The position numbers were made by a program, and so were the translations under genes. Below, one piece after another: positions 9,452 through 34,727 of a DNA stretch of 35,872 bases. Each line of letters opens with the position of its first letter. Position 1 is the stretch's first letter. The notes beneath the pieces are model-generated. The model worked only from the letters and a program-made list of their open reading frames with translations, was not told where the DNA came from and ran no database searches. Origin of the DNA: an uncultured Lachnospiraceae bacterium (GTDB lineage: Bacteria > Bacillota > Clostridia > Lachnospirales > Lachnospiraceae); the NCBI GenBank assembly GCA_902793845.1, contig CADBFE010000023.1, positions 1 through 35,872 on the forward strand, written 5' to 3'.

Positions 9452-9799
9452 CTAGATATTGATATTAAATACAATAATTCCCACAATAATAACAATCAAT
9501 CCCAGCAATTTCTTCCTGCTGACCTTCTCCTTAAGAATCAAATATCCAAGCAGTGTCACCCAGATATACCCGGTTGCTTCCAGTACAGGACCAAGGGAAA
9601 GGTCCACGTATTTATATGCAAGAACCGTGACAACTGTTGATAAAAAGAACAGACCGTATGCAATGATAACAGGGGCATTGAGGTATTCTTTTATCTTGCT
9701 ATCGTATGTTTTCCCTGCGCTTATCTTAAGCAGTATCTGTGACACTGATGAGACAAAAACCGATATTAAAAATATTCCGATATAAAGATAATTATTCAT
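9452..9799 (-). CDS. SMR/EamA-type small four-helix transporter subunit (second of a pair)
   Basis: Integral membrane protein of 115 residues with four predicted helices (about 5-25, 43-62, 68-88 and 96-113). The fold is that of the small multidrug resistance/DMT superfamily, close to ArnE/ArnF-type half flippases. The last helix ends KLLGLIVIIVGIIVFNINI and a GPVLEATGYIWVTLLGYLILKE segment marks helix 3. It overlaps the upstream SMR-like gene by 8 nt, which suggests a heterodimer. At the end of a surface glycan operon, a role in moving a lipid-linked sugar or sugar phosphate across the membrane is plausible. A general drug exporter cannot be excluded. Confidence 0.8.
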   Translation of the reverse strand: MNNYLYIGIFLISVFVSSVSQILLKISAGKTYDSKIKEYLNAPVIIAYGLFFLSTVVTVLAYKYVDLSLGPVLEATGYIWVTLLGYLILKEKVSRKKLLGLIVIIVGIIVFNINI

Positions 9800-10157
9800 C
9801 GCCTGTCACCACCAGATAAACGCCTGCCATAATGATGACGGCTCCCACAATATTAAATACAGTTATGGTCTCATTAAATATGAGCAGTCCCCACACAAGT
9901 CCCCAGATTACTGTGACTGCCTTGTTTGCATATGCCGTAACTATCGGCAGACCTTTTATTATCTGCTGCCACACTACTGCATACATTACCAAGATAAACA
10001 TAAGCAGTCCGTAAAACAGACAGAACTTAAATGAGAGAAAAATTTCTCCTGATGCCTTTTTTGAACACACACTGCCAAGAGAAAAAATCAGCAGCATAAT
10101 GTGAAGAGCTATAAAATATTTAATTTTTGAAGTTTTATTATTAACGGAATTATTCAT
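9792..10157 (-). CDS. SMR/EamA-type small four-helix transporter subunit (first of a pair)
   Basis: Membrane protein of 121 residues with four helices (about 13-31, 42-62, 72-92 and 98-117). Helix 3 and its surroundings read KGLPIVTAYANKAVTVIWGL and helix 4 contains FNIVGAVIIMAGVYLVVTGDE, both typical of the EamA/SMR fold. It overlaps the next gene by 8 nt; the two differ in sequence and are likely to form a heterodimer with opposite membrane orientation. It begins 22 nt after the stop of the broken GDPD gene with no obvious ribosome binding site, so translation may depend on coupling. ArnE/F-like flipping of a lipid-linked amino sugar is an inference from the neighbours. Confidence 0.78.
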   Translation of the reverse strand: MNNSVNNKTSKIKYFIALHIMLLIFSLGSVCSKKASGEIFLSFKFCLFYGLLMFILVMYAVVWQQIIKGLPIVTAYANKAVTVIWGLVWGLLIFNETITVFNIVGAVIIMAGVYLVVTGDE

Positions 10158-10179: not shown

Positions 10180-12706
10180 TTATTTCAGTATCCATATCCG
10201 GTCGCTGGGCACCCTCACATCACTCCTGTACGGTCTTGCGGATGAGTGGAATATCAGATACAGACCTTCATCCGACAAAAACGGCTGTTCCACGCCTTCA
10301 GGCAGGATGTAGCAAAGTGCATTTTCCTCTGCATATGAAACTATCTGGTCACTGTATCCGAATATCAGCAGCTTTGAATCTTCATTGCCGTAGCTCTGGG
10401 TCATGATTATCTTGTTTCGGTTATTTGAGTCATGCCTAAATGTGATACCCTGGATATGCTCCGGGATAGAAATGATATTTAGGAGATGCTCACTCGTAGG
10501 ATATGTGATGTCATACACCTTAATCTGGCCGTCTACTCCGTCCATGTTGGCTCCGACATACAGTTTGTCATCATCTACTGTAAGGAATGATACGACTACA
10601 TCACCGTTCTGATTATAAAAACCTGCAGAGAAACTGTATACCGGCTCAGTATTACCTGCGATGAGTCCCGACCAGTCAAATGCATATACATATCCGTCAG
10701 ATCCAGTTATCCATAAAAGGTTATTCAGGCTGTCATATCCGATACCTGCGCCGTGACATTTCATGCCTGTATCAATGATTCCCACCAGGTCTCCCTTTTT
10801 ACCAAGCTCATACAGAACCGTATTTCCATGAGACGAAATATCATAAGCAGAGATAAGCAGCTTGTCTCCGACTTTAGTCATGCCCTGCATCACGTAATTG
10901 CTGTATGATTCCTGAAGTACATAATCGTAAAGAACCGGAACCTCATATGATTTTACATAATAATCATAGAGAAATGAATACTCATCATGAATCACAACCT
11001 TTGCTATACCGGGATAATTGGTAACTATACCGTCAGCACCTATATCAACAGCCTTTCTGATAGACTCGGCATCATTAAGCGTCCATGCATAAAACTTGAC
11101 GCCCGCCGCGTGGAGTTTTTCAGGGGCATCCTCCTCGATACCCGAAAGTTTTAAATTATAATAATCCGCCGGATAATTGGTGAGGAGGTCGTCTGCATTG
11201 GCTGTGTCAGAAATAAATTCGACCTTAAGTTCCTCGTCAATCGCCTTTATCTCTTTTAAGTAAGTATAGTTATATGATGAAAAGATAACCCGGTCTTCCA
11301 TGTTGTAATCTTTTACGATCTCAACAACATTTTCCGTAAAGCCCTGGACATTTCCGATATTCTTCAGTTCAAGATTAATACCTACTCCCGTATCCTGCAG
11401 CATCTCGCATACATCGCTGAGCTTTGGTATCTTTTCGTCACCGAATGTACCGTTGTAGCTGCCGGCTACATTGTCATACCAGCTGCCTGCATCGAGCATG
11501 CATATCCTTGCCGGAGTGGCCTGTAATACGGCTTAAGGTATTGTCATGAAATACGAGGATTACTCCATCTTTTGTCATCTGTACATCAAGTTCTATCTGG
11601 TCAGCACCGATATCAACAGCCCTCTTAAATGCAGCTATGGTATTTTCCGGTGCGATACCGCTGTATCCCCTGTGGGCTATTATCTCTATACCAAGGTCCT
11701 CTTCCTTAACCGTATCCTCCCCTGTCTCCTTCCAGAATATCTCATCACCGTCGATGATAAATCTCGCCATCTCGATGACATCAGCCGTGCTACGGTTTGT
11801 ATAGGTGGCGATACCGATGATTATCATACCTGTCAGGATTATGACAGAGCATATACCCGTAACGATGGCCTTGCCGATCTTACGGCTCTTTTCCGATATG
11901 GTTTTGCTCTCCCATATAGTAAATACAACAGGATAGATATAAGCGATAAAAAATGAGATAAAGAGACTTTGGATAAAATCACTGCATTTTGCAGGGAGCA
12001 CCAAAACAGAGAGGTCATCTCCAAATGAACAGAATAGTGATATCAGTATGGCTCCCGGGATATAGCGAAGTATCTTTGTGATCAGATCGCCGCCTGTCCT
12101 AAATCTGATGGAGTAATTATCAAGGAGTGCTCCAACCGTAAATCCGATAAAGAGGCCAAGGCCTGACGACAGTCCCGATCTCACTACAGCAATAAGGACA
12201 AACACAAAAATGATCAGTGTCAGAATTATTTTTGACCTTTTCGGGTTTGTATCATCTCTAATGACATGTTTAAAGATAAGCCTGATGATAAACATCACGA
12301 ATATCGTAAATCCAAATGATAACAATACATGCTTTAGGGAATAGACGCCGAGATAGCATCTTGAGATCATTATGAGTGAGAGCAGAAATAAAGATTCTGC
12401 TGCGAGAATCTTTTCATGTAATGAGCTTTTACATTTTTTACAGCCAATACCGAGACTCCCCCAGACAGAGGATCCGCGGATAGTTGTGGTACAGGGAAAT
12501 ACACTGCTGCCGGCAGTTAATGTAAGAGATGATGACATTGTACTGCTCATTAAGATGCCGGTCTTTTTATCAATACACCAGTATACAAAAGAAAGGACCA
12601 GAAATATCTCAAGGGGTCTGCCAAGGTTTGACAGCTGGAGCATAAATGCATCAAATATACCGCCTGTGGCGTTTCTGATATTTTGAAGGAACAGGACAAA
12701 ACTCAT
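10180..12706 (-). pseudogene. PAP2-like/GDPD/propeller fusion gene, frameshifted inside the GDPD domain
   Basis: Two overlapping frames make up one former gene of about 850 codons. The first (11474-12706, 410 codons) has membrane helices with a PAP2-like start (FVYWCIDKK), and then the first third of a glycerophosphodiester phosphodiesterase barrel: AHRGYSGIAPENT with the catalytic His near residue 345, then QIELDVQMTKDG and FHDNTLSRITGHSGK. The second (10180-11499, 439 codons) resumes at LDAGSW, carries INLELK and ends the barrel with GADGIVTNYP. A C-terminal region of about 270 residues follows and looks like a beta-propeller. Family members have about 11-12 residues between GK and LDAG; here 10 nt remain, so roughly 23-26 nt are missing. 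The PAP2 motifs are also degenerate: SGH is absent and SRCYLGVYSLKH lacks the usual His and Asp. AAGGA before the ATG at 11499 could restart translation, but it would yield half a barrel. Confidence 0.8.
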
Positions 12707-15974: not shown

Positions 15975-16937
15975 TTATTTCCAGTACGGTCCGTACTCGA
16001 CCTTGTCGGCATCGGCAGGCTTTTCCTCTATGGGATAAATCCAGTCATCGTTATAATACTTTGCTACGTCCGCTCTCATTTTTCCGTCAGAACCGGGCCG
16101 CGTACCGTCCCATCGCTTGCCCATGATACCAAACATCAGCTGGATGGTACCGCCCATGTGGACTGCCTGTCTGCCGCCTCTCTTAATCTCTGCTGCGAGA
16201 GGGTATCCGTATGCACCGCATCCAAGCAAAGCGATATCAAAATCAATGTTCAGAATCTCTTCAGCCATAAAATAAAGTGCCTCAAACCAGTTATCAAACC
16301 GGTCATCTTTAAGATTCCCTACTGTCATCAGAGGCTTGTATGTCTTTAAATCAAATTCCGGCAAAATATCTGTACCTAAAAAGAGTTTCTCCCTCTTTTC
16401 ATACTGGACCTTTACACTATCAGGAAATGATGTCACAACGAGGACCTTTTTACCTTTAAGGGCTTTTGTCCATGAATCGTTTCCAAGTTTGCATACTTCA
16501 AAGAGATTAAAGCTGTCACATACAACAGCCTCCTTTGGCAGATAATGATCTATAAAATAATTTTCTATGACATTCGTATTTGCCGCCTGAATATCCATAA
16601 CAGACATGGCATCTTTCATGCAATCGTTGAATTCATAACCGTAAGAAATATCATTAGGAAAGAATCCTGCGCAATTATAAATATTGTTCATGACGAGACT
16701 GTACTTTTTCTTTATGCCAAACTCATACATACGCATGGCAGCCAGTTCAAAGAGTCCGAGGCGTCCCACTGCAAACGGTTCTCCTCCCCGGATCATATCA
16801 GAAAGGGCTCCGGATGCCCCATACATATCAAGGACTTCTCTTTTGCAGTATTTCTTATTTTTCTGATATACGGGAAACTTCTGACGCAGTACATAATCTG
16901 CTGCATACAAAAGCCATGTCAATCTGCTTTTTGTCAT
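15975..16937 (-). CDS. GT-D fold glycosyltransferase (DUF1792-like)
   Basis: Protein of 320 residues with the hallmarks of the GT-D glycosyltransferase fold. The N-terminal part has EPFAVGRLGLFELAAMRM (53-70), equivalent to the R-x-G-x-x-E signature (R59, G61, E64). The C-terminal part has IALLGCGAYGYPLAAEIK followed by VHMGGTIQLMFGIMGKRW, the other conserved block. Enzymes of this fold were described as the third sugar transferase of streptococcal serine-rich adhesin glycosylation; the substrate here is unknown. It sits 14 nt after the ABC exporter and one base before acyltransferase 3. Cytoplasmic, with no membrane segment. Assignment rests on two motif blocks, so family confidence is good and substrate is open. 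Confidence 0.8.
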   Translation of the reverse strand: MTKSRLTWLLYAADYVLRQKFPVYQKNKKYCKREVLDMYGASGALSDMIRGGEPFAVGRLGLFELAAMRMYEFGIKKKYSLVMNNIYNCAGFFPNDISYGYEFNDCMKDAMSVMDIQAANTNVIENYFIDHYLPKEAVVCDSFNLFEVCKLGNDSWTKALKGKKVLVVTSFPDSVKVQYEKREKLFLGTDILPEFDLKTYKPLMTVGNLKDDRFDNWFEALYFMAEEILNIDFDIALLGCGAYGYPLAAEIKRGGRQAVHMGGTIQLMFGIMGKRWDGTRPGSDGKMRADVAKYYNDDWIYPIEEKPADADKVEYGPYWK

Positions 16938-16951
16938 ACCAATTATTTATC

Positions 16952-18727
16952 TTACGGATTTTCGCTTTTAAAGAGCTCGTCGTGTGATATCTGCTCTACT
17001 TTGCCATTCTCAACCCTGAATATGATATCGCACTTCTCAACAGTCGTTAATCTGTGGGCAATCATAATCATGGTCCTGGTGCCCTGAAGAGATTCGATGG
17101 CTTTCATTACTTCTTTTTCTGTATCATTATCAAGGGCCGATGTGGCTTCATCAAATACAAGCACCTGGGGATTTCGATAAAGTGCCCTCGCTATACCGAG
17201 ACGCTGACGCTGACCACCTGATATACGGGTACCCCGTTCACCTACATCCATCTCGAGACCTTTTTCTGATTCTCTTACGAAATCGGCTATCTGTGCATCT
17301 GCAAGAGCCTGCCATACTTTATTTTCATCGGCCGAGGATTCGTTTACACCCCATGCCACGTTGTTTTTTAAGGAGTCATCGATAAGATAAATATTCTGAG
17401 GGATATATCCGATCTGCTTTCTCCAGCCCTCAATATTTTCGATAATATCCTTTCCATCAACCAGCACTTTTCCTTCTGTGGGACGGAGGAGTCCGATTAT
17501 CATATCCGCAAGAGTAGTCTTGCCTCCGCCTGACGGACCAACAAAAGCTACCGATTTACCTTTTGGAATCGTGATGCTGACATCATTAAGGACAAGCTTT
17601 TCTGAATTGTCGTAGTGGAAGGTTACATGGTCGAGGGTGATATCTGAATCGAAAGAAACAGGAACGGTTTCCCCACTATCATCATTCTCTTTTACAAGCA
17701 GTTCATTTGCTTCCCTGACATCATTGTATACAAGGTCAATTGATGCCCTGTGATAAATAATCGTATTCAAATAATTATAAATTGCATTAACAGCCGGCAA
17801 TAACTTATAGGCTGCAGCAACAAATACTGCTATACCCGGAACCAGTTCCATATAATTTGGATTAAATATAATCTCAAGTCCAAGATATACGAGTATGCCA
17901 CACATGCTAACTGCTTCTATAAGATTCTTTGGTATTACATTTGAAAGACCGAATCGTCTGTATACATCTGTGCTTTCTTTATACTGACCTACGTACCTCT
18001 TTATAAAGAAATTCTCACTGTGCATTATCTTGAGTTCTTTAATACCCTCAAACATCTGCTGGAGAGTCTGGTAAAGAGCTCCGTTTAATTCCTGATTACG
18101 CTTGCCATAATATCTTGACTTCTTCTTTATAAAAATCATGATGATAGCGGCGCATACTCCGAGAAGTCCGGCAACAACCGTTGTCATTACGATATTTGTC
18201 ACAGCCAGTGTTATCAGCAGGAATATCACAGTCAATGCATTGGATGCAACCTGGAAAACATTGAGGATTACTTCATATAACTGGGCTGTATCATTGCTAA
18301 CAGACCTGATTAACTCTGCCGTGTTTCGCGATAAGAAAAATGAATACGGCTGTCTCATGTATGCCTTCATAAGCTTAACTGCCATATTTTCTTTAATGGT
18401 AGCTGACATCTTATAAAGCTGGCCATACATCCACGACAAATACAGACTCTTAAATACATATACGAGCATAGCTGCTCCGATGATGATAATCATGACCGGC
18501 TCTCTCTCAGCGATTCCGGTGATATTCATCACGGCCTTACACCATATATTCTCCGCATAATTTTCATCCATTATCAGATTTACAATAGGATAAATAACTG
18601 CTACGCCAAGGAGTTCTACGAAAGAACCAAAGAAAATCAACGCAAAAAGAAAGATCACTTTGATTTTGATCTTTCTTTCCATTAAATAATTTAATTTATA
18701 AATTACACTCTGCTTTTTGTCATTCAT
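16952..18727 (-). CDS. PglK/MsbA-like ABC exporter, probable lipid-linked glycan flippase
   Basis: Half-transporter of 591 residues with a six-helix membrane domain (about 20-325) fused to an ATPase. The Walker A motif is GPSGGGKTT (397-405), the Q-loop lies in YIPQN, the signature is ISGGQRQRLG (502-511), Walker B is VLVFDEATS (522-530) and the switch His is H558. All ATPase residues are intact. In glycan loci such proteins flip undecaprenyl-diphosphate-linked oligosaccharides, as Campylobacter PglK does; the context of glycosyltransferases and nonulosonate enzymes fits this. The ATG at 18727 follows an AT-rich 30-nt gap without a clear ribosome binding site. No Wzx or Wzy was found, so this is the best candidate for the flipping step. 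Confidence 0.88.
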   Translation of the reverse strand: MNDKKQSVIYKLNYLMERKIKIKVIFLFALIFFGSFVELLGVAVIYPIVNLIMDENYAENIWCKAVMNITGIAEREPVMIIIIGAAMLVYVFKSLYLSWMYGQLYKMSATIKENMAVKLMKAYMRQPYSFFLSRNTAELIRSVSNDTAQLYEVILNVFQVASNALTVIFLLITLAVTNIVMTTVVAGLLGVCAAIIMIFIKKKSRYYGKRNQELNGALYQTLQQMFEGIKELKIMHSENFFIKRYVGQYKESTDVYRRFGLSNVIPKNLIEAVSMCGILVYLGLEIIFNPNYMELVPGIAVFVAAAYKLLPAVNAIYNYLNTIIYHRASIDLVYNDVREANELLVKENDDSGETVPVSFDSDITLDHVTFHYDNSEKLVLNDVSITIPKGKSVAFVGPSGGGKTTLADMIIGLLRPTEGKVLVDGKDIIENIEGWRKQIGYIPQNIYLIDDSLKNNVAWGVNESSADENKVWQALADAQIADFVRESEKGLEMDVGERGTRISGGQRQRLGIARALYRNPQVLVFDEATSALDNDTEKEVMKAIESLQGTRTMIMIAHRLTTVEKCDIIFRVENGKVEQISHDELFKSENP

Positions 18728-26307: not shown

Positions 26308-27264
26308 TTACAGTTTTAAAGTCATCAGCAGTAGTTTTATCTGCTCTTTTAAACTGACTGAATCTTTATCATCAAAAAAATGTTTTAATGTATCCGCATC
26401 GTTTTTATCAGGTAACATGGCATCGCTTATTTCATACGAGTCCTTCTCGTCAATCTTCTGATAATCAAATGCGTCTCCGCCAACAGTATCGCAGTTTTCT
26501 CCTGTGCCGTCGTGTCCCATATTTCTTACTTTTGACAGGTACGGTATTATCGTCTTTTTACCTGTGATAAACAGATAGACTGCTATGATAAAATCAGAGT
26601 CTCTAAGTTCTTTTTCTTCAGAATTCGTTCTGTATACCGGGAGGTAATATTTATCACTTGCAATATAGAGTGCGTTTTTATATACATGATATGACCACTC
26701 TTTCATTACCCTGCGGTTATTCTTATCTTTCAGATAATTTGCTATATCCTCTCTTCTGAATTTAGCAAACTCTTCCAGCCTGTCTTTCCACAGTCCGCAG
26801 CCCCATGCACTGAAAAATCCCGTCTTAAATACTCCGTCTTTTTTCGTTAATTCTACCGGCCACAAATATCCGTTTATGGCAAATATCTCCCTGGCATTCT
26901 CATATTTATCAAGCATACTGTTCATATACTCAAGATAGTTGGGAGAAAATATATTGTCATCTTCCGTATATATCAGTCTGTCTGTCTTTTCCCAGACTTT
27001 ATCATACAGAAACCTGCCGTTCTCACTGGGTCCCATATTTTCTTCCTGGATAAAGACATATACATTTCTGAAACCCCCTATAGTACCATTAACATATTCA
27101 AGTACTTTTTTGTATCCTTCCTCATATTTTGGTGTAGGAGGATAGTCAACAGAAATATATAAATCTGTATCTATGGCATATTTATTTGCTGCCAGAGATT
27201 CTATGCAGTTTCTCAAGTGCTCATACCTGTTAAGAGTAGGTATGACAACAGGTGCTGTCTTCAT
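26308..27264 (-). CDS. GT2/GT-A-type glycosyltransferase
   Basis: Cytoplasmic glycosyltransferase of 318 residues. It begins TAPVVIPTLNRYEHLRNCIE, a GT-A nucleotide-sugar-binding start. The DxD-like motif is TEDDN at 100-104, in the context RLIYTEDDNIFSPNYLEYMN. The segment AINGYLWPVE and a WGCGLWKDR block follow; these also occur in GT13-like (GlcNAc-transferase I) enzymes, so the family could be GT2 or closer to GT13. It starts 3 nt after the stop of the ATP-grasp gene without an obvious ribosome binding site, suggesting coupling. Acceptor and donor are unknown. Confidence 0.82.
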   Translation of the reverse strand: MKTAPVVIPTLNRYEHLRNCIESLAANKYAIDTDLYISVDYPPTPKYEEGYKKVLEYVNGTIGGFRNVYVFIQEENMGPSENGRFLYDKVWEKTDRLIYTEDDNIFSPNYLEYMNSMLDKYENAREIFAINGYLWPVELTKKDGVFKTGFFSAWGCGLWKDRLEEFAKFRREDIANYLKDKNNRRVMKEWSYHVYKNALYIASDKYYLPVYRTNSEEKELRDSDFIIAVYLFITGKKTIIPYLSKVRNMGHDGTGENCDTVGGDAFDYQKIDEKDSYEISDAMLPDKNDADTLKHFFDDKDSVSLKEQIKLLLMTLKL

Positions 27265-29486: not shown

Positions 29487-31058
29487 TCATTTAATCTTGT
29501 AAACCCACACAGGCCAGCCTCCAACATGGGTTTCTTTTGAAAAAATATATCCTATAGAATATATTATATTGGATGTTGCCATAAATTTCTGGTCATAATT
29601 GCCATCAGGCTCTATATAGTATACAAGGGGAAATGAAGCATCTATAGCCTCATAAAACTCCGCAGGCTTAGTTCTCGATCTCACAAAATACTCCGGTACG
29701 GAATCAGGATCCTTTACAGTCGCCACTCCATTTTCATCTATATCAAATTCTCCGTAGTAAGTTGTACCCCACCATGTACAGAACGGCGTCTCCCATTCCG
29801 AAATAGAATTACCCGCATTTATACCCATACTCTCAAGATCATTGAGCCCTGCGTAGCAGACATTCGGAAGAGACAGATATTTTGTCATGCATATTCCGGA
29901 GAGCAAAATATTGATTATCAATACTCCGGTCACAAGAACATAACAAATCTTTAATACTTTCTTTTTGTTTAATAATTCAAATCCGTATGATATACCGACG
30001 CCGACAAGCAAAATATAAAACAGATAAATAGGTGTTCCCCATCTGATCCACTGAACAGGGATGATACTGATGATAAACCAGTAGAGGAGTCCAACCATAA
30101 ATACAAGGGATCGTCTGTCTCTCTTTTTGAATAAAGAAATCAGTCCGAGTGCAAATGGAATCAAAGAAACGCATCCCAAGTTTAGGACAGACGTCTTAAA
30201 GTAAAAATAAAAATTTTGGAAAAACATGGAAAGCCTGGTACCCCCTACATTACGAGGCTTTGACTCCTCATGCATATACTGCATGATAACAGGGAAATCG
30301 CTGATAATATTAGGCATGATAATAAAACATGTCAGAAATACTGTTATTACAGATATTATCCCGTGAATGAAAATGTTCCTGTACTTCTTTTCTTTTACAG
30401 AGCGGTATATGACCATAAGTGCTATACCAAAGCACAAAAACAGTCCTGGCCATTTTATCATCGCACATATTCCTACTATAACAGCAGAGATGATAAGAGA
30501 TGATACTTTGCCATCCTCAAGATATCTGATAAAGAATAAACAAAAAAGCATGACCATACATGCAAGAGGTACATCAGGTGTCATATACCCCGAGTGCTGG
30601 ATATATATGGGAAAGAAGCAAAATATAAACGCTGTTATAATCTGAGTCTTTATCTTGTTGATAGAAAGAATATCAGACATCTTTCCCGCAAATATAACGG
30701 AAACAGGTATCATCGCAACGCCAAAACATGTAGTGAAAAACCTGCCCATTACATGTAGAGCAATGGGGTGGCTGTCAAATATCGCATTTGGATCAGCGTG
30801 CCATAATATTTTTGAGGCAACAGACAGAATCAGTGCGACACACTTTATCTCAACCTGATCAGGACGATTAACTACATGACAGATATATGTATGATTCTTG
30901 ATTAGATCCAGTGCAGGCAGCATGATAAACTGCTCATCAATATTAAGAATCTGAGGATCTCCCCAATAACATGCAACTATACGCATGGCAAGGGCTATTA
31001 TCATCAGTAATCCTATAAAACAAAACAGTATTAATTTATTTTTATTTTTGCTTTTCAT
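29487..31058 (-). CDS. GT-C membrane glycosyltransferase (ArnT/GT39 PMT_2-like)
   Basis: Polytopic membrane protein of 523 residues with about 11-12 hydrophobic segments followed by a soluble C-terminal part of about 120 residues. The first outward loop carries YWGDPQILNIDEQF, placing an acidic pair (D-E) where GT-C enzymes of the PMT/ArnT group keep the catalytic Asp. Such enzymes use lipid-phosphate sugars on the outer face of the membrane. The DPM1/GtrB-like GT2 upstream (33760-34727) would make that lipid-phosphate sugar, so the two form a logical pair; the GT2 frame is broken in this sequence. Its ATG overlaps the stop of the YidC-sulfatase gene by one base (TAATG). Confidence 0.85.
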   Translation of the reverse strand: MKSKNKNKLILFCFIGLLMIIALAMRIVACYWGDPQILNIDEQFIMLPALDLIKNHTYICHVVNRPDQVEIKCVALILSVASKILWHADPNAIFDSHPIALHVMGRFFTTCFGVAMIPVSVIFAGKMSDILSINKIKTQIITAFIFCFFPIYIQHSGYMTPDVPLACMVMLFCLFFIRYLEDGKVSSLIISAVIVGICAMIKWPGLFLCFGIALMVIYRSVKEKKYRNIFIHGIISVITVFLTCFIIMPNIISDFPVIMQYMHEESKPRNVGGTRLSMFFQNFYFYFKTSVLNLGCVSLIPFALGLISLFKKRDRRSLVFMVGLLYWFIISIIPVQWIRWGTPIYLFYILLVGVGISYGFELLNKKKVLKICYVLVTGVLIINILLSGICMTKYLSLPNVCYAGLNDLESMGINAGNSISEWETPFCTWWGTTYYGEFDIDENGVATVKDPDSVPEYFVRSRTKPAEFYEAIDASFPLVYYIEPDGNYDQKFMATSNIIYSIGYIFSKETHVGGWPVWVYKIK

Positions 31059-33760
31059 TATTTATCCAGTAATTCCCAATTATTTAATTCAAAAATATTT
31101 TCTTCAACATGATACCATGGTGCATTATTATAGTTAAACTGATTTCTCTCGAGGGATATATCATGATCTCCGCTTGTTACCACATTTATACCATTAATCT
31201 TGCCATCCATATTTACCGGATTACACGTATAAGGATTTACAGGATTCAGTATTATTCCCTCCATAGCAATAGCTGGAGTATCAGCATTTGTCATAAAAGT
31301 ATAATCATATGAAAAACCTGAACTGTCAAAATCCTTTACCATGAACAAAGGATTAAACCACATGACCTCTTCGCCTGTAGGAAGTCTGTAATCTGGGAAC
31401 TGACCTAATCCTCTTCCATGATCTGCTACGATAATGATTCTTGTATTATCATATACGCCCTGCTCTCGCATCCAGTCAAAATAATCTGCAAGTATCAGCA
31501 TCGCCGCCATATTGCAATGATAATGGCCAACACTTATATCAGGTTCATCTCCAAGAGCCATTGTCATGCCATTACTTTCTCTAACCTGATATAAGTCATA
31601 ATCTGAATTATCTATATTATCAACTGCAGTATAATTAGGAAGCTGTAAGATGCATGGCTCATGGGTAATATTGTTATCATACATAAATAATGTATCCTGA
31701 TCAGACTCTTCAATAACCGATAATTCTTTTAAACTCTCCAATGAAGCATATGACTGGTAAAACAATACCGGAACATCAAGTGTCTTGCTTGCTACAGCTG
31801 ACATATAATTACCGGCATCATAAATATCATCCTGAATTATTGTCGGCGCCGTTCTCAAAATGCTGTAAAAACAGAAATTCCTCTTCATTACATCCCATTC
31901 TGTTTCCACATCCCTTCCACCTCTCATAGTCTTTTCAAGATGAAAAGCATTGAGATTATCTATATCATCAAATATGGAATAATCTGAAAAATCATTATAT
32001 CCAGCATAGGGTACATCACATACTGTTATCTTTGCATTATCCTCTTTAAACAATAATGGCATTAATCTAAGTGCTTCATCATGTTTATCTGCCAGCAGTT
32101 CTGTACTTCTTCCATCGATTGCTTCCGGTGTATAATCATATCCACCAAACAATGCCGGTGAACCCATATTTGTATATGCGGCAAATGAAGCTGTATTAGG
32201 GTAATAAACAAAACCATCTAACTTTTCTTTTAACTCAGGTTTTTCATCAAGAATAAATGGCAGGTACGCGCCAATAGCTCTGTCCAACATAATTACCATT
32301 ACATTTTTTCCGTCTGTGCTTAATGGTATTACTCTTTCTTCTCCATCATAGAAATCGCTTACTTCAATGCTTTCTAATTCTTTCGCTGTCATTATATATT
32401 GTTTTGCGGAAACAAAAGTCATGCTGAGAAGTAAAAGTACAGACAATACTCTCACTACCTTTTTTATTTTTGCCCATAAAATAAATATTATTACTGGCAC
32501 AAAAATGATGATTACCAGATTAATCAGCTTCATCACTTTATCAAATCTTGGGTATGTATCAAATACAAGTTCAGAAGTAAGACTGCCAACCTTTGCCTGA
32601 AAGAAGAAATAATTTATCAGAGATAGTATAAATGCTGAGCAAAAAATCTTTACACATGTTTCTTTCTCTTTTTTGCCACAAACCCAGTATATAATACCTC
32701 CCCATAACAGGAATAATCCTGAGAAAATGCATATGCTTGTCCATTCGAAATATAGGGGAGATTTGTATTCAATCAAATCGACAAATTCCATGGGAGAAGC
32801 ACTTATAACAGATAATGGTATCATTACACCAAATAATGCTGTCAATGACAAAAGAAATACAACGGCATCCTTTGTTGAATCATATTTATCTATTAATTCT
32901 TCAACTTCTTTATTTTTCTTTTTACCAAGTAATAATGATAATAATGGAATATAGAAAATACAGTAAACTAATCCAAATATTAATAATGTCTCATAATCCT
33001 TGGTCACAAGAATATAAGAAATCTTTCCCATCACAAACGAAAAGATAATGAATCCATTTCCTGCTGCCAACGAAATAATAGCAAGCAGTTTCTTTGGATT
33101 TTTGACGTATTTCATTACAAAATTCTTTACTAGAGAAAAGATATTGTTGAGTGTCCAGTAGAGTACGAGTCCTGAAGGACTTCTGTAAAGCAAAACCAGA
33201 AACAAGAGTGCCAGAAGATAAGGCTGGAGCTTATCCTTAAATGATAAATCTTTAGTGTATATTGCTGAAGAAACATAATTAATCGCCGTCATCAGCACAG
33301 GCAAAACATTAATATGAATTCCCGCTATTACAAGGAGTCCGTCTTCTGCACCAAGATCTGACAGAGGGCCAAAAGAATATCCCTTCAAAAGAGATAAATT
33401 AAAAAGAAAATGATATGCTGCAATAAAAAAGGGAACCTGAAGAAGTAATGGGAATATACCCTGGATACTCTGAAGCTGATGATAGTTCTGCTGCCTGTAA
33501 TACGTTGACAGCATCATAAATCTCTCATCACCTTTAAATGTCTTTTTAATATGGTCGACCCACTTTTTTATTTTCTTTTCTTTCTCCCGCTGTTGCTCCT
33601 GAATGGCATCAGCTCTCATATATAAGGGAAGTGTCAGAAAACTGACTCCGAAACTAACACCAAAAATCGCCCAACCGGCATTACCGATAAAGCGATACAT
33701 GATGGCGAAAATGATTTCCAGTAAATATTCAATTGGCTGAATTACTATATTGTATAACAT
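31058..33760 (-). CDS. YidC/Oxa1-like domain fused to a sulfatase/alkaline-phosphatase superfamily domain
   Basis: A 900-residue fusion. Residues about 1-220 look like a YidC/Oxa1/Alb3 insertase: a first helix leading to LTLPLYMRADAIQEQQREKE, a charged cytoplasmic hairpin (about 52-95), then SIQGIFPLLLQVPFFIAAYHFL and SGLVLYWTLNNIFSLVKNF near 196-214. No lipoprotein signal precedes it, and the hydrophilic-groove Arg of SpoIIIJ-type YidC aligns by eye with Ser40. Residues 225-455 add several more helices. The outer domain (about 480-900) belongs to the sulfatase/alkaline phosphatase superfamily: VMVIMLDRAIG (D493), AYTNMGSPALFGG (candidate nucleophile T530) and IIVADHGRGLG (D780, H781). This suggests transfer of a phospho-group or a hydrolase acting on a lipid or glycan. 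The ATG overlaps the GT2 stop by one base. Function unknown. Confidence 0.88.
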   Translation of the reverse strand: MLYNIVIQPIEYLLEIIFAIMYRFIGNAGWAIFGVSFGVSFLTLPLYMRADAIQEQQREKEKKIKKWVDHIKKTFKGDERFMMLSTYYRQQNYHQLQSIQGIFPLLLQVPFFIAAYHFLFNLSLLKGYSFGPLSDLGAEDGLLVIAGIHINVLPVLMTAINYVSSAIYTKDLSFKDKLQPYLLALLFLVLLYRSPSGLVLYWTLNNIFSLVKNFVMKYVKNPKKLLAIISLAAGNGFIIFSFVMGKISYILVTKDYETLLIFGLVYCIFYIPLLSLLLGKKKNKEVEELIDKYDSTKDAVVFLLSLTALFGVMIPLSVISASPMEFVDLIEYKSPLYFEWTSICIFSGLFLLWGGIIYWVCGKKEKETCVKIFCSAFILSLINYFFFQAKVGSLTSELVFDTYPRFDKVMKLINLVIIIFVPVIIFILWAKIKKVVRVLSVLLLLSMTFVSAKQYIMTAKELESIEVSDFYDGEERVIPLSTDGKNVMVIMLDRAIGAYLPFILDEKPELKEKLDGFVYYPNTASFAAYTNMGSPALFGGYDYTPEAIDGRSTELLADKHDEALRLMPLLFKEDNAKITVCDVPYAGYNDFSDYSIFDDIDNLNAFHLEKTMRGGRDVETEWDVMKRNFCFYSILRTAPTIIQDDIYDAGNYMSAVASKTLDVPVLFYQSYASLESLKELSVIEESDQDTLFMYDNNITHEPCILQLPNYTAVDNIDNSDYDLYQVRESNGMTMALGDEPDISVGHYHCNMAAMLILADYFDWMREQGVYDNTRIIIVADHGRGLGQFPDYRLPTGEEVMWFNPLFMVKDFDSSGFSYDYTFMTNADTPAIAMEGIILNPVNPYTCNPVNMDGKINGINVVTSGDHDISLERNQFNYNNAPWYHVEENIFELNNWELLDK

Positions 33761-34727
33761 TATTTATTTTGCTCTTCAGAAACCGTGGCCACTTCGCCCG
33801 GTTCCTTAATATTCGTCTCTCTCGCCAGATATATTGGTCTGTTTTTAACCTCCATATATATTCTGGCCATATATTCTCCTATCATTCCAAGGATAGTAAT
33901 AATTACTCCGCCAAGCAGAAGCATAACAATAAGGAGGGTGGCATAACCGTTCCTATCTGCAGTAGGAGAATTAATAGATGTAATGAATGTAAATATCGCA
34001 AAAGCTATGGCTCCTATCGTAACAAGTGAACCTAAATATACTACTCCCCTAAGCGGTGTAGTAGCAAATGCCATAAAGCCCTGAAGTGCATATCTAACGA
34101 GGCCTCTGAAACTCCATGTAGTCTCACCGGCCACTCTCTCGACGTCCTTATATTCTATCCATTTATTTTTAAAGCCTATCCAGCTGTATATACCTTTTGT
34201 AAATCTCTCAGATTCCGGCATGGAAACTATCGCCTCGGCAACCTTACGCTTCATGAGACGATAATCTGTTCCACCCTGAACCAGATCCATACCTGTCAGA
34301 TTATTAATAATTCCAAAGAATAGCTTTGAAAATAACTTTCTGAATACAGGCTCGCCATGACGAGCTACTCTCCTTGCGGACGCACAATCGTATCCTTCTT
34401 TCTCTATGGCATCAAGCATCTGTTCTATAAGCTCCGGGGGATGCTGGAGATCTGCATCAAGTATTCTTTTCCAAAGTTTCTGGACAGGGAAATATATTGG
34501 ATCCTGCCTTTTTTCATCGTACCCGACGATAAGAATTTATCATGTATTTCAACCGTCTTTTTAATTTCATCTAATGTATTATCTTTACTGCCGTCATCTA
34601 TATAAGTAATCGTAAAATCATAATTAAAAAGCCTATCTGACGAGAAAACCTCGCAGATACGCTTATAAAATAAATCTATACATTTTTCTTCGTTATAACA
34701 TGGAACTATCAGTTCAATCGTATACAT
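33760..34727 (-). pseudogene. DPM1/GtrB-like GT2 glycosyltransferase, frameshifted
   Basis: First gene of the glycan locus and apparently broken. The 5' part (34425-34727) encodes MYTIELIVPCYNEEKCIDLF to LSRNFGKE, the standard start of a polyprenyl-phosphate sugar synthase. After GKE the frame changes near 34462 and ends in a short wrong-frame tail. The rest continues in another frame with LDADLQHPPELIEQMLDAIE, then TDYRLMKRK and two C-terminal helices (about 135-205 of the second part) to a stop at 33760. Family members have about 18 residues between GKE and DADLQ; here 5 nt remain, so about 49 nt are missing, including the helix before the DxD. The longest ATG frame of the second part starts at 34419. 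The intact enzyme would load a sugar onto undecaprenyl phosphate for the GT-C enzyme. Confidence 0.85.

Follow-up and report, generated by a model that had tools for sequence, protein, structure and literature searches.

What might a membrane domain of the YidC/Oxa1 type be doing at the N-terminus of a putative enzyme in a bacterial glycan locus? The question is raised by a stretch of 35,872 nt from an uncultured Lachnospiraceae bacterium (assembly GCA_902793845.1, contig CADBFE010000023.1, positions 1 to 35,872; hereafter the window), in which a single open frame of 900 amino acids occupies the minus strand of 31058–33760, frame 1 of the plus strand being packed with stops. An earlier annotation of this DNA (the original prediction) had placed an uninterrupted 900-codon gene here; gene and coordinates stand, and the strand, which it omitted, is minus. 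The open reading frame (ORF), profile matches and predicted structure together describe a protein composed of a YidC module, linker helices, a five-transmembrane-helix (5TM) anchor and an alkaline-phosphatase-fold domain. The fusion of the YidC module to the transferase part is real, conserved and functional-looking. Its probable function is to add groups to sugars or lipids of the cell surface through a phosphate link, and its make-up suggests that a fold for inserting proteins has come to serve the handling of building blocks carried on lipids.

Two domains joined in one chain

The full-length model, computed with 71 sequences, has a predicted local distance difference test score (pLDDT) of 90.5 and a predicted template modelling score (pTM) of 0.84, in it, the helices of YidC are followed by two of the linker, five further long ones and an alpha/beta domain. 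Residues 1–225 (33086–33760, minus strand, as for all parts of the gene) form the YidC/Oxa1 module, with its core helices and cytoplasmic helical hairpin. A linker of residues about 222–295 (32876–33097), delimited by predicted structure and conservation, carries predicted membrane helices at residues 222–243 and 256–277. The five-helix anchor of the transferase part covers residues about 296–470 (32351–32875), as judged from predicted helices and from alignment to stand-alone 5TM-sulfatase proteins, and the alkaline-phosphatase/sulfatase-fold domain covers residues 478–900 (31061–32329). The additional helices that the original prediction had noted between the two domains are accounted for, in the model and by hhalign, by the two linker helices and the anchor.

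The identity of the N-terminal module is supported by profiles and by fold. Residues 29–217 match PF02096 with an E value of 3e-22 (79.7 bits against a cut-off of 35), and TIGR03592 is matched at 86.8 bits, above the 84.3-bit cut-off for membership of YidC/Oxa1/Alb3; profile-based annotation would consequently label the fusion an insertase. The same profile was found at E≤0.001 in all 35 modules scanned, which are members of the module's alignment, and the family profile reached solved YidC chains among PDB sequences at E 1e-11. When residues 1–235 were folded alone (35 sequences, pLDDT 89), core helices and cytoplasmic hairpin were kept, and all eight Foldseek matches at E≤1e-3 were YidC or OXA1L (E. 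coli and Bacillus halodurans YidC, human OXA1L), with a target TM of 0.72 to 3wo6. Residues 1–225 are thus a genuine YidC/Oxa1 module; the N-terminal YidC/Oxa1-like domain of the original prediction, a claim that hung on such models, is borne out by matches to both.

Residues 300–900 align over their length with nine stand-alone proteins of the type "five helices plus sulfatase fold" (hhalign, probability 99.8, E 2.6e-30), indicating that the fusion consists of a YidC module and a whole existing membrane protein. For the single protein, the Pfam Sulfatase model PF00884 gave a weak match below its cut-off (residues 759–791, E 0.02, 14.7 bits against 25). A profile of 21 relatives run against PDB sequences reached a phosphonate monoester hydrolase at E 7e-6, sulfatases from 5e-5 and LtaS at 0.009. 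The 50 Foldseek matches shown for the full model (E 2e-7 to 2e-5, identity 10–15%) comprise sulfatases, full-length MCR-1, LtaS, EptA, phosphonate monoester hydrolases and PbgA; all three groups with which the original prediction had proposed comparing the domain, LtaS, EptA and sulfatases, are therefore among them.

In an alignment of 99 full-length rows (98 plus P0001, after removal of 5 of 103 ORFs shorter than 840 aa), D493 (32282–32284), T530 (32171–32173), H700 (31661–31663), D780 and H781 (31418–31423) are identical in every row. D493 follows strand 486–492, T530 opens helix 530–539 and D780-H781 follow strand 773–778, the arrangement usual in the superfamily; by analogy with it, D493, D780 and H781 are presumed metal ligands and T530 the presumed nucleophile. 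Their equivalents are invariant in the nine stand-alone relatives, as is a His that matches H700, a putative active-site residue. Fold and residues make a strong case for assigning the outer domain to the alkaline-phosphatase fold, as originally proposed with D493, T530, D780 and H781 in place.

Could this domain be a hydrolase, either a sulfatase or a phosphodiesterase, that trims a glycan? In Foldseek, sulfatases and phosphonate monoester hydrolases rank level with LtaS and EptA, and the family profile scores both better than LtaS. S1 sulfatases, however, carry Cys or Ser at the nucleophile position, for formylglycine, and here the residue taken as nucleophile is Thr in 99 of 99 rows. Membrane anchor and neighbouring head-group genes (see below) also fit transfer better, and we consider a hydrolase improbable. 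Phospho-group transfer to a lipid-linked or surface glycan is consistent with the sequence data.

The original prediction had called for a survey of other Lachnospiraceae; a search of genomes in general recovered the same fusion. At least 562 relatives were confirmed in named genomes, the best of which were kept as 76 loci; both halves are found in 103 ORFs from 74 of them, L063 and L083 having no ORF with both. The fusion is therefore not an artefact of the assembly of one contig, and it also occurs in records without a metagenome-bin label, for example those of Schwartzia succinivorans DSM 10502 and of the Lachnospiraceae strains AB2028 and XBD2001. Locus titles name Lachnospiraceae, Oscillospiraceae, Coriobacteriales, Eggerthellaceae, Schwartzia and rumen bins labelled Treponema, and 20 of the 74 loci hold two to five copies. 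A draw of 397 genomes of the family gave matches in 61 at E≤0.001, 18 of them at E≤1e-50 (including the window's own genome and a divergent one, G052), and a draw from the phylum in 3 of 398 at E≤1e-40, again counting its own. Since some contigs, such as L066 (G049:C10), are common to the family draw and the 76 loci, these two surveys are not independent. A scan with the single protein had matched 30 stretches, none of which was confirmed; the family emerged with the alignment. At L082:15056–17820, one copy is spread over two overlapping ORFs (YidC, 354 aa; transferase, 579 aa), which may be a frameshift or a true split.

Conservation of the YidC module

Over the 99 rows, majority identity is 0.70 in the YidC module, 0.30 in the linker (residues 226–300), 0.45 in the anchor and 0.595 in the outer domain. 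The module is the best-conserved part of the chain, which makes an idle anchor unlikely. N161, N205, S209 and K212 are fixed in 97–99 of the 99 fusion rows and in none of 19 housekeeping-type YidCs of the family, a comparison from which L146 (a fusion) and L147 (divergent) were excluded and in which the housekeeping label was checked by neighbouring genes for the window genome's own copy. T158 was left out of this set: no Thr occurs there in any of the 17 housekeeping-type YidCs, out of the 19, that could be compared. The aromatic pair Y201/W202 is found in all 99 rows, and the fusion's module differs from YidC/Oxa1 insertases in an insert of four residues close to where the cytoplasmic hairpin starts. 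High conservation together with fixed polar residues of its own thus makes the module look specialised rather than idle.

We also considered whether loss of the groove arginine might prove loss of insertase function, and rejected the argument. The position of E. coli R366, placed by alignment, is Asn in 79, Ser in 19 and Gln in 1 of the 99 rows, and is never basic. A basic residue is likewise missing in 13 of 20 housekeeping-type YidCs (L133–L145, L147–L152 and L056; L146 excluded), where Tyr or Asn stands instead, so that the position does not discriminate. Passages of one publication call the positive residue of the groove strictly conserved in all homologues (PMC8920935).

These observations bear on whether the module is a protein insertase or chaperone for one client, which could be its own transferase domain, the neighbouring membrane glycosyltransferase of GT-C type or the membrane stretch of a PF04464 partner. 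It scores as YidC/Oxa1 in both sequence and fold, insertion is the established role of that family, and the GT-C ORF overlaps the fusion ORF by one base. However, the window's genome already has a separate housekeeping YidC, on another contig among dnaA, rnpA, yidD, jag and mnmE; other EptA/LtaS-type enzymes are not known to need a private insertase; and in relatives the module accompanies phospho-head-group genes and carries a polar set unlike that of housekeeping-type YidCs. A dedicated insertase is therefore unlikely in our view. Compared with YidC/Oxa1 insertases in general, residues 1–225 have profile membership and fold in common, and differ in being joined to an enzyme, in belonging to a gene other than the housekeeping one, and in their polar residues and insert.

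PF04464 enzymes, a second fusion and head-group genes

The commonest neighbour of the fusion gene encodes a PF04464 (CDP-glycerol-glycerophosphotransferase-like) enzyme with an N-terminal hydrophobic stretch, represented by 61 ORFs in 56 of the 76 loci. Two of these ORFs (≤300 aa) were dropped before the PF04464 scan, and all 59 members scanned matched. Of the 99 fusions with an ORF upstream, 49 have the PF04464 gene as that immediate neighbour on the same strand, with a gap of −4 to +13 bases in 45 of the 49; immediately downstream it is found in 17 of 94. In these partners (e.g. L100:8702–9985) a common N-terminal stretch, LYIDPGTGSMLFTILIG, has most positions conserved at ≥90% over the 59 members.

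Among the weaker matches of the family draw we found a second architecture, in which YidC and PF04464 modules form one chain: 22 genes in 20 of 394 genomes (L024, L025, L027, L029, L030, L032–L037 and L155–L165), listed with a profile (A7) itself built from nine of those genes. A stand-alone 5TM transferase is encoded on the same strand in 12 of the 22 loci against none of nine control stretches from the same genomes; profile A6, used for this count, consists of nine proteins of L025–L034, so that L025, L027, L029, L032, L033 and L034 match by construction, and L030, L155, L160, L162, L163 and L165 are the positives independent of it. A further protein, at L055, carries a YidC module and a divergent transferase domain, and a PF04464 gene precedes it by about 0.5 kb. 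A tree was computed for 56 YidC domains, with a bootstrap that had not settled and with two rows on long branches; in it each architecture makes up a single clade, that of the transferase fusions with 28 rows (100/100) and that of the PF04464 fusions with 8 (100/99). The same three modules thus recur together in two different fusions, an argument that they serve a single process.

Such alternating fusions could also mean that the module is a structural platform, an enlargement of the membrane domain on which a lipid substrate or a partner (a PF04464 enzyme or a glycosyltransferase) docks with no transbilayer movement. Docking accounts no less well than transport for fusions to one or the other partner in separate lineages, and full-length MCR-1 and EptA, which match the model, function with small helical anchors. 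Since no other part of the protein is as conserved as the module, which also keeps the YidC helices, the hairpin and Y201/W202, seemingly more than an anchor needs, we hold a pure platform to be rather unlikely. A second alternative follows from the name of PF04464, which is that of a polyglycerophosphate-forming transferase: with this enzyme fused directly behind the YidC module in the second architecture, the latter might help to form a conduit through which a glycerophosphate-type or phosphonate polymer made by the enzyme passes as it grows. PF04464 has no match in the window's genome, however, and the YidC groove is not known to be a closed channel. PMC8920935 places the groove in the inner leaflet. 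A conduit is accordingly very improbable.

Genes of choline, phosphonate or cytidylyltransferase type (blastp, E≤1e-20, query coverage of 70% or more) were detected in 24 of the 76 fusion loci, in 15 of the 22 YidC-PF04464 loci and in none of the nine controls. In L086, L089 and L103, an EamA transporter accompanies genes of cytidylyltransferase-like and choline-kinase type. L066 and L100 and, with the YidC-PF04464 architecture, L033 and L036 encode a nucleotidyltransferase fused with a domain of aminotransferase fold. In Schwartzia succinivorans DSM 10502 (L117:12811–19613), a phosphoenolpyruvate (PEP) mutase with a cytidylyltransferase domain, a thiamine pyrophosphate-type decarboxylase, a class-V aminotransferase and a nucleotidyltransferase lie between the fusion and PF04464 genes. 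The genes near the YidC-PF04464 fusions in the 15 loci are likewise of phosphonate type (PEP mutase, decarboxylase, aminotransferase) or cytidylyltransferase-like. From these neighbours, many members of the family probably handle phosphocholine, phosphoethanolamine or aminoethylphosphonate groups. The nearest known counterparts of the PF04464 neighbours are CDP-glycerol glycerophosphotransferases that accompany lic-type or phosphonate genes; in the 76 fusion loci, the PF04464 enzyme is a protein separate from the fusion.

The glycan locus of the window and a proposed role at the membrane

In the window itself, the fusion is flanked on the minus strand by two glycosyltransferase genes, both identified from the ORF list and profiles. 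Downstream, at 29487–31058, lies the GT-C-type membrane glycosyltransferase (PMT_2/GT87 matches) that has one base in common with the fusion ORF. Upstream, at 33760–34727, lies a PgfS-like glycosyltransferase of family GT2, spread over two ORFs: 34425–34727 holds positions 3–75 of the PgfS model and 33760–34419, which also has one base in common with the fusion ORF, holds positions 111–308, positions 76–110 being in neither. The DNA between them is too short for the missing part, so that the GT2 gene is broken in this contig; an assembly error or decay may be the cause. The locus further contains NeuB, a cytidylyltransferase, an ABC transporter, DegT aminotransferases and several glycosyltransferases. 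A gene for a glycerophosphodiester phosphodiesterase (GDPD; 10180–12706, minus strand) is also split over two overlapping ORFs, with profile positions 1–55 and 74–243.

GT2, GT-C and putative outer transferase thus stand side by side, with the GT2 gene broken. When the relatives of these two glycosyltransferase genes were sought over the 76 loci (blastp, E≤1e-6), those of GT2 were found in 2 and those of GT-C in 0, which does not support the GT2/GT-C pair as the general partner of the family. The interpretation of the original prediction is thus supported in part: it holds for a membrane-anchored alkaline-phosphatase-fold domain on a YidC module, with a GT-C gene and an adjoining GT2 in two ORFs, and among the 76 loci the usual partner is instead a PF04464 enzyme (56 of 76), often with genes for head-group activation. 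Fusion genes among homologues of window-locus genes occur in Lachnospiraceae AB2028 (L057) and in a metagenome bin (L058): both have counterparts of the GT2 at 26308 (52 and 54%), the GT-D-like protein at 15975 (53 and 52%) and the ABC transporter at 16952 (40 and 50%), to which L058 adds an ATP-grasp protein (68%) and L057 a GT4 (53%).

How might the two halves work together? Our preferred reading, to which we give about an even chance, is that of a membrane phospho-group transferase with EptA/LtaS/SccH-like logic, whose fused YidC module serves the reaction at the membrane. The outer domain would strip a membrane lipid of its phosphoryl head group by way of an intermediate on Thr530 and pass this group on to a surface glycan or glycolipid. 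For a lipid-linked donor or acceptor that is synthesised at the cytoplasmic face, the YidC module would provide a hydrophilic route to the outer face, or alternatively it would hold such a molecule there for the outer domain. In relatives with a PF04464 neighbour, the substrate might be made by the PF04464 enzyme from choline-, ethanolamine- or aminoethylphosphonate-type groups activated with cytidine triphosphate; in the window's genome, it could be an ordinary phospholipid or a lipid from its own glycan locus. The two domains with their folds, the invariant residues and the association of three modules in relatives are results of computation; the transfer chemistry, donor, acceptor and topology, as well as the transporting or presenting role of the module, we infer from these comparisons.

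The proposal that the module brings or presents a lipid-linked substrate is drawn from two sets of published observations. According to excerpts of PMC10491306, E. coli YidC, yeast Oxa1 and Get1 scramble lipids in vitro. Passages of PMC11754754 describe SccH of Streptococcus mutans, which transfers glycerol phosphate from phosphatidylglycerol onto side chains of the wall glycan made by GT2 and GT-C enzymes, in a pathway where the flippase for the undecaprenyl-phosphate sugar donor is marked as unidentified. The window's fusion adjoins a GT-C gene and the broken GT2 gene. A stronger proposal is that the YidC fold has been diverted from protein insertion into a dedicated lipid flippase or scramblase module for one enzyme that brings lipid-linked phospho-head-group or sugar intermediates outward, a coupling built twice, once with the outer transferase and once with the cytoplasmic PF04464 enzyme; we regard it as tentative, with the balance tilting against it.

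Several points weigh against the transferase reading with its YidC-served reaction. Lipid scrambling by ordinary YidC may be incidental. No PF04464 match was found in the window's genome (94.9% complete), so that PF04464 as a partner bears on this copy solely by way of its relatives; a second protein matching the 5TM-transferase profile was not found there either. PF04464 was likewise not found in L057–L060, which are top-scoring loci of more than 19 kb each, and is present in L062, of the same YidC subclade. In the surveys, the 76 loci are best-scoring matches and not a random sample; head-group genes were sought by blastp and not found in 52 of them; no 5TM transferase was seen in the stretch read for 10 of the 22 YidC-PF04464 loci, the contig running out in 3 of all 22; and 6 of the 12 positive loci helped build the profile. 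Finally, two adjacent proteins of 115 and 121 aa (9452–10157, minus strand) each give an EamA half-match, one above and one below the Pfam cut-off, and resemble the ArnE/ArnF sugar-lipid flippase pair. They could possibly be an ordinary sugar-lipid flippase, which weakens the case for the YidC module as the only way across the membrane in this locus.

Among known systems, the EptA/MCR and LtaS-type transferases, including streptococcal SccH/GacH, share with the fusion a membrane anchor and an outer alkaline-phosphatase-fold domain, and differ in sequence (10–15% identity); none of them is known to have a YidC module. MprF-type proteins embody the same idea of lipid transport and head-group chemistry in one chain, with folds that presumably differ from those of the fusion. 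Flippase domains joined to AglD glycosyltransferases are mentioned in passages of PMC5898192. In titles and abstracts of the open-licence papers searched we found no description of fusions of the YidC-transferase or YidC-PF04464 type; the main text of PMC13059722 does not contain the word YidC, and no open-licence paper on phosphocholine or licC in Lachnospiraceae was found.

The in vitro scrambling by YidC reported in the excerpts of PMC10491306 suggests, without showing, that an Oxa1-type groove can move lipids. If our reading is true, the fusion would be a concrete genetic case of such a groove moving lipids rather than proteins, and the fusion of a flippase with the enzyme that consumes what it delivers would be directly testable. 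The family recurs in rumen and gut bacteria, and, being often near choline or phosphonate genes, it may shape zwitterionic glycans on their surface.

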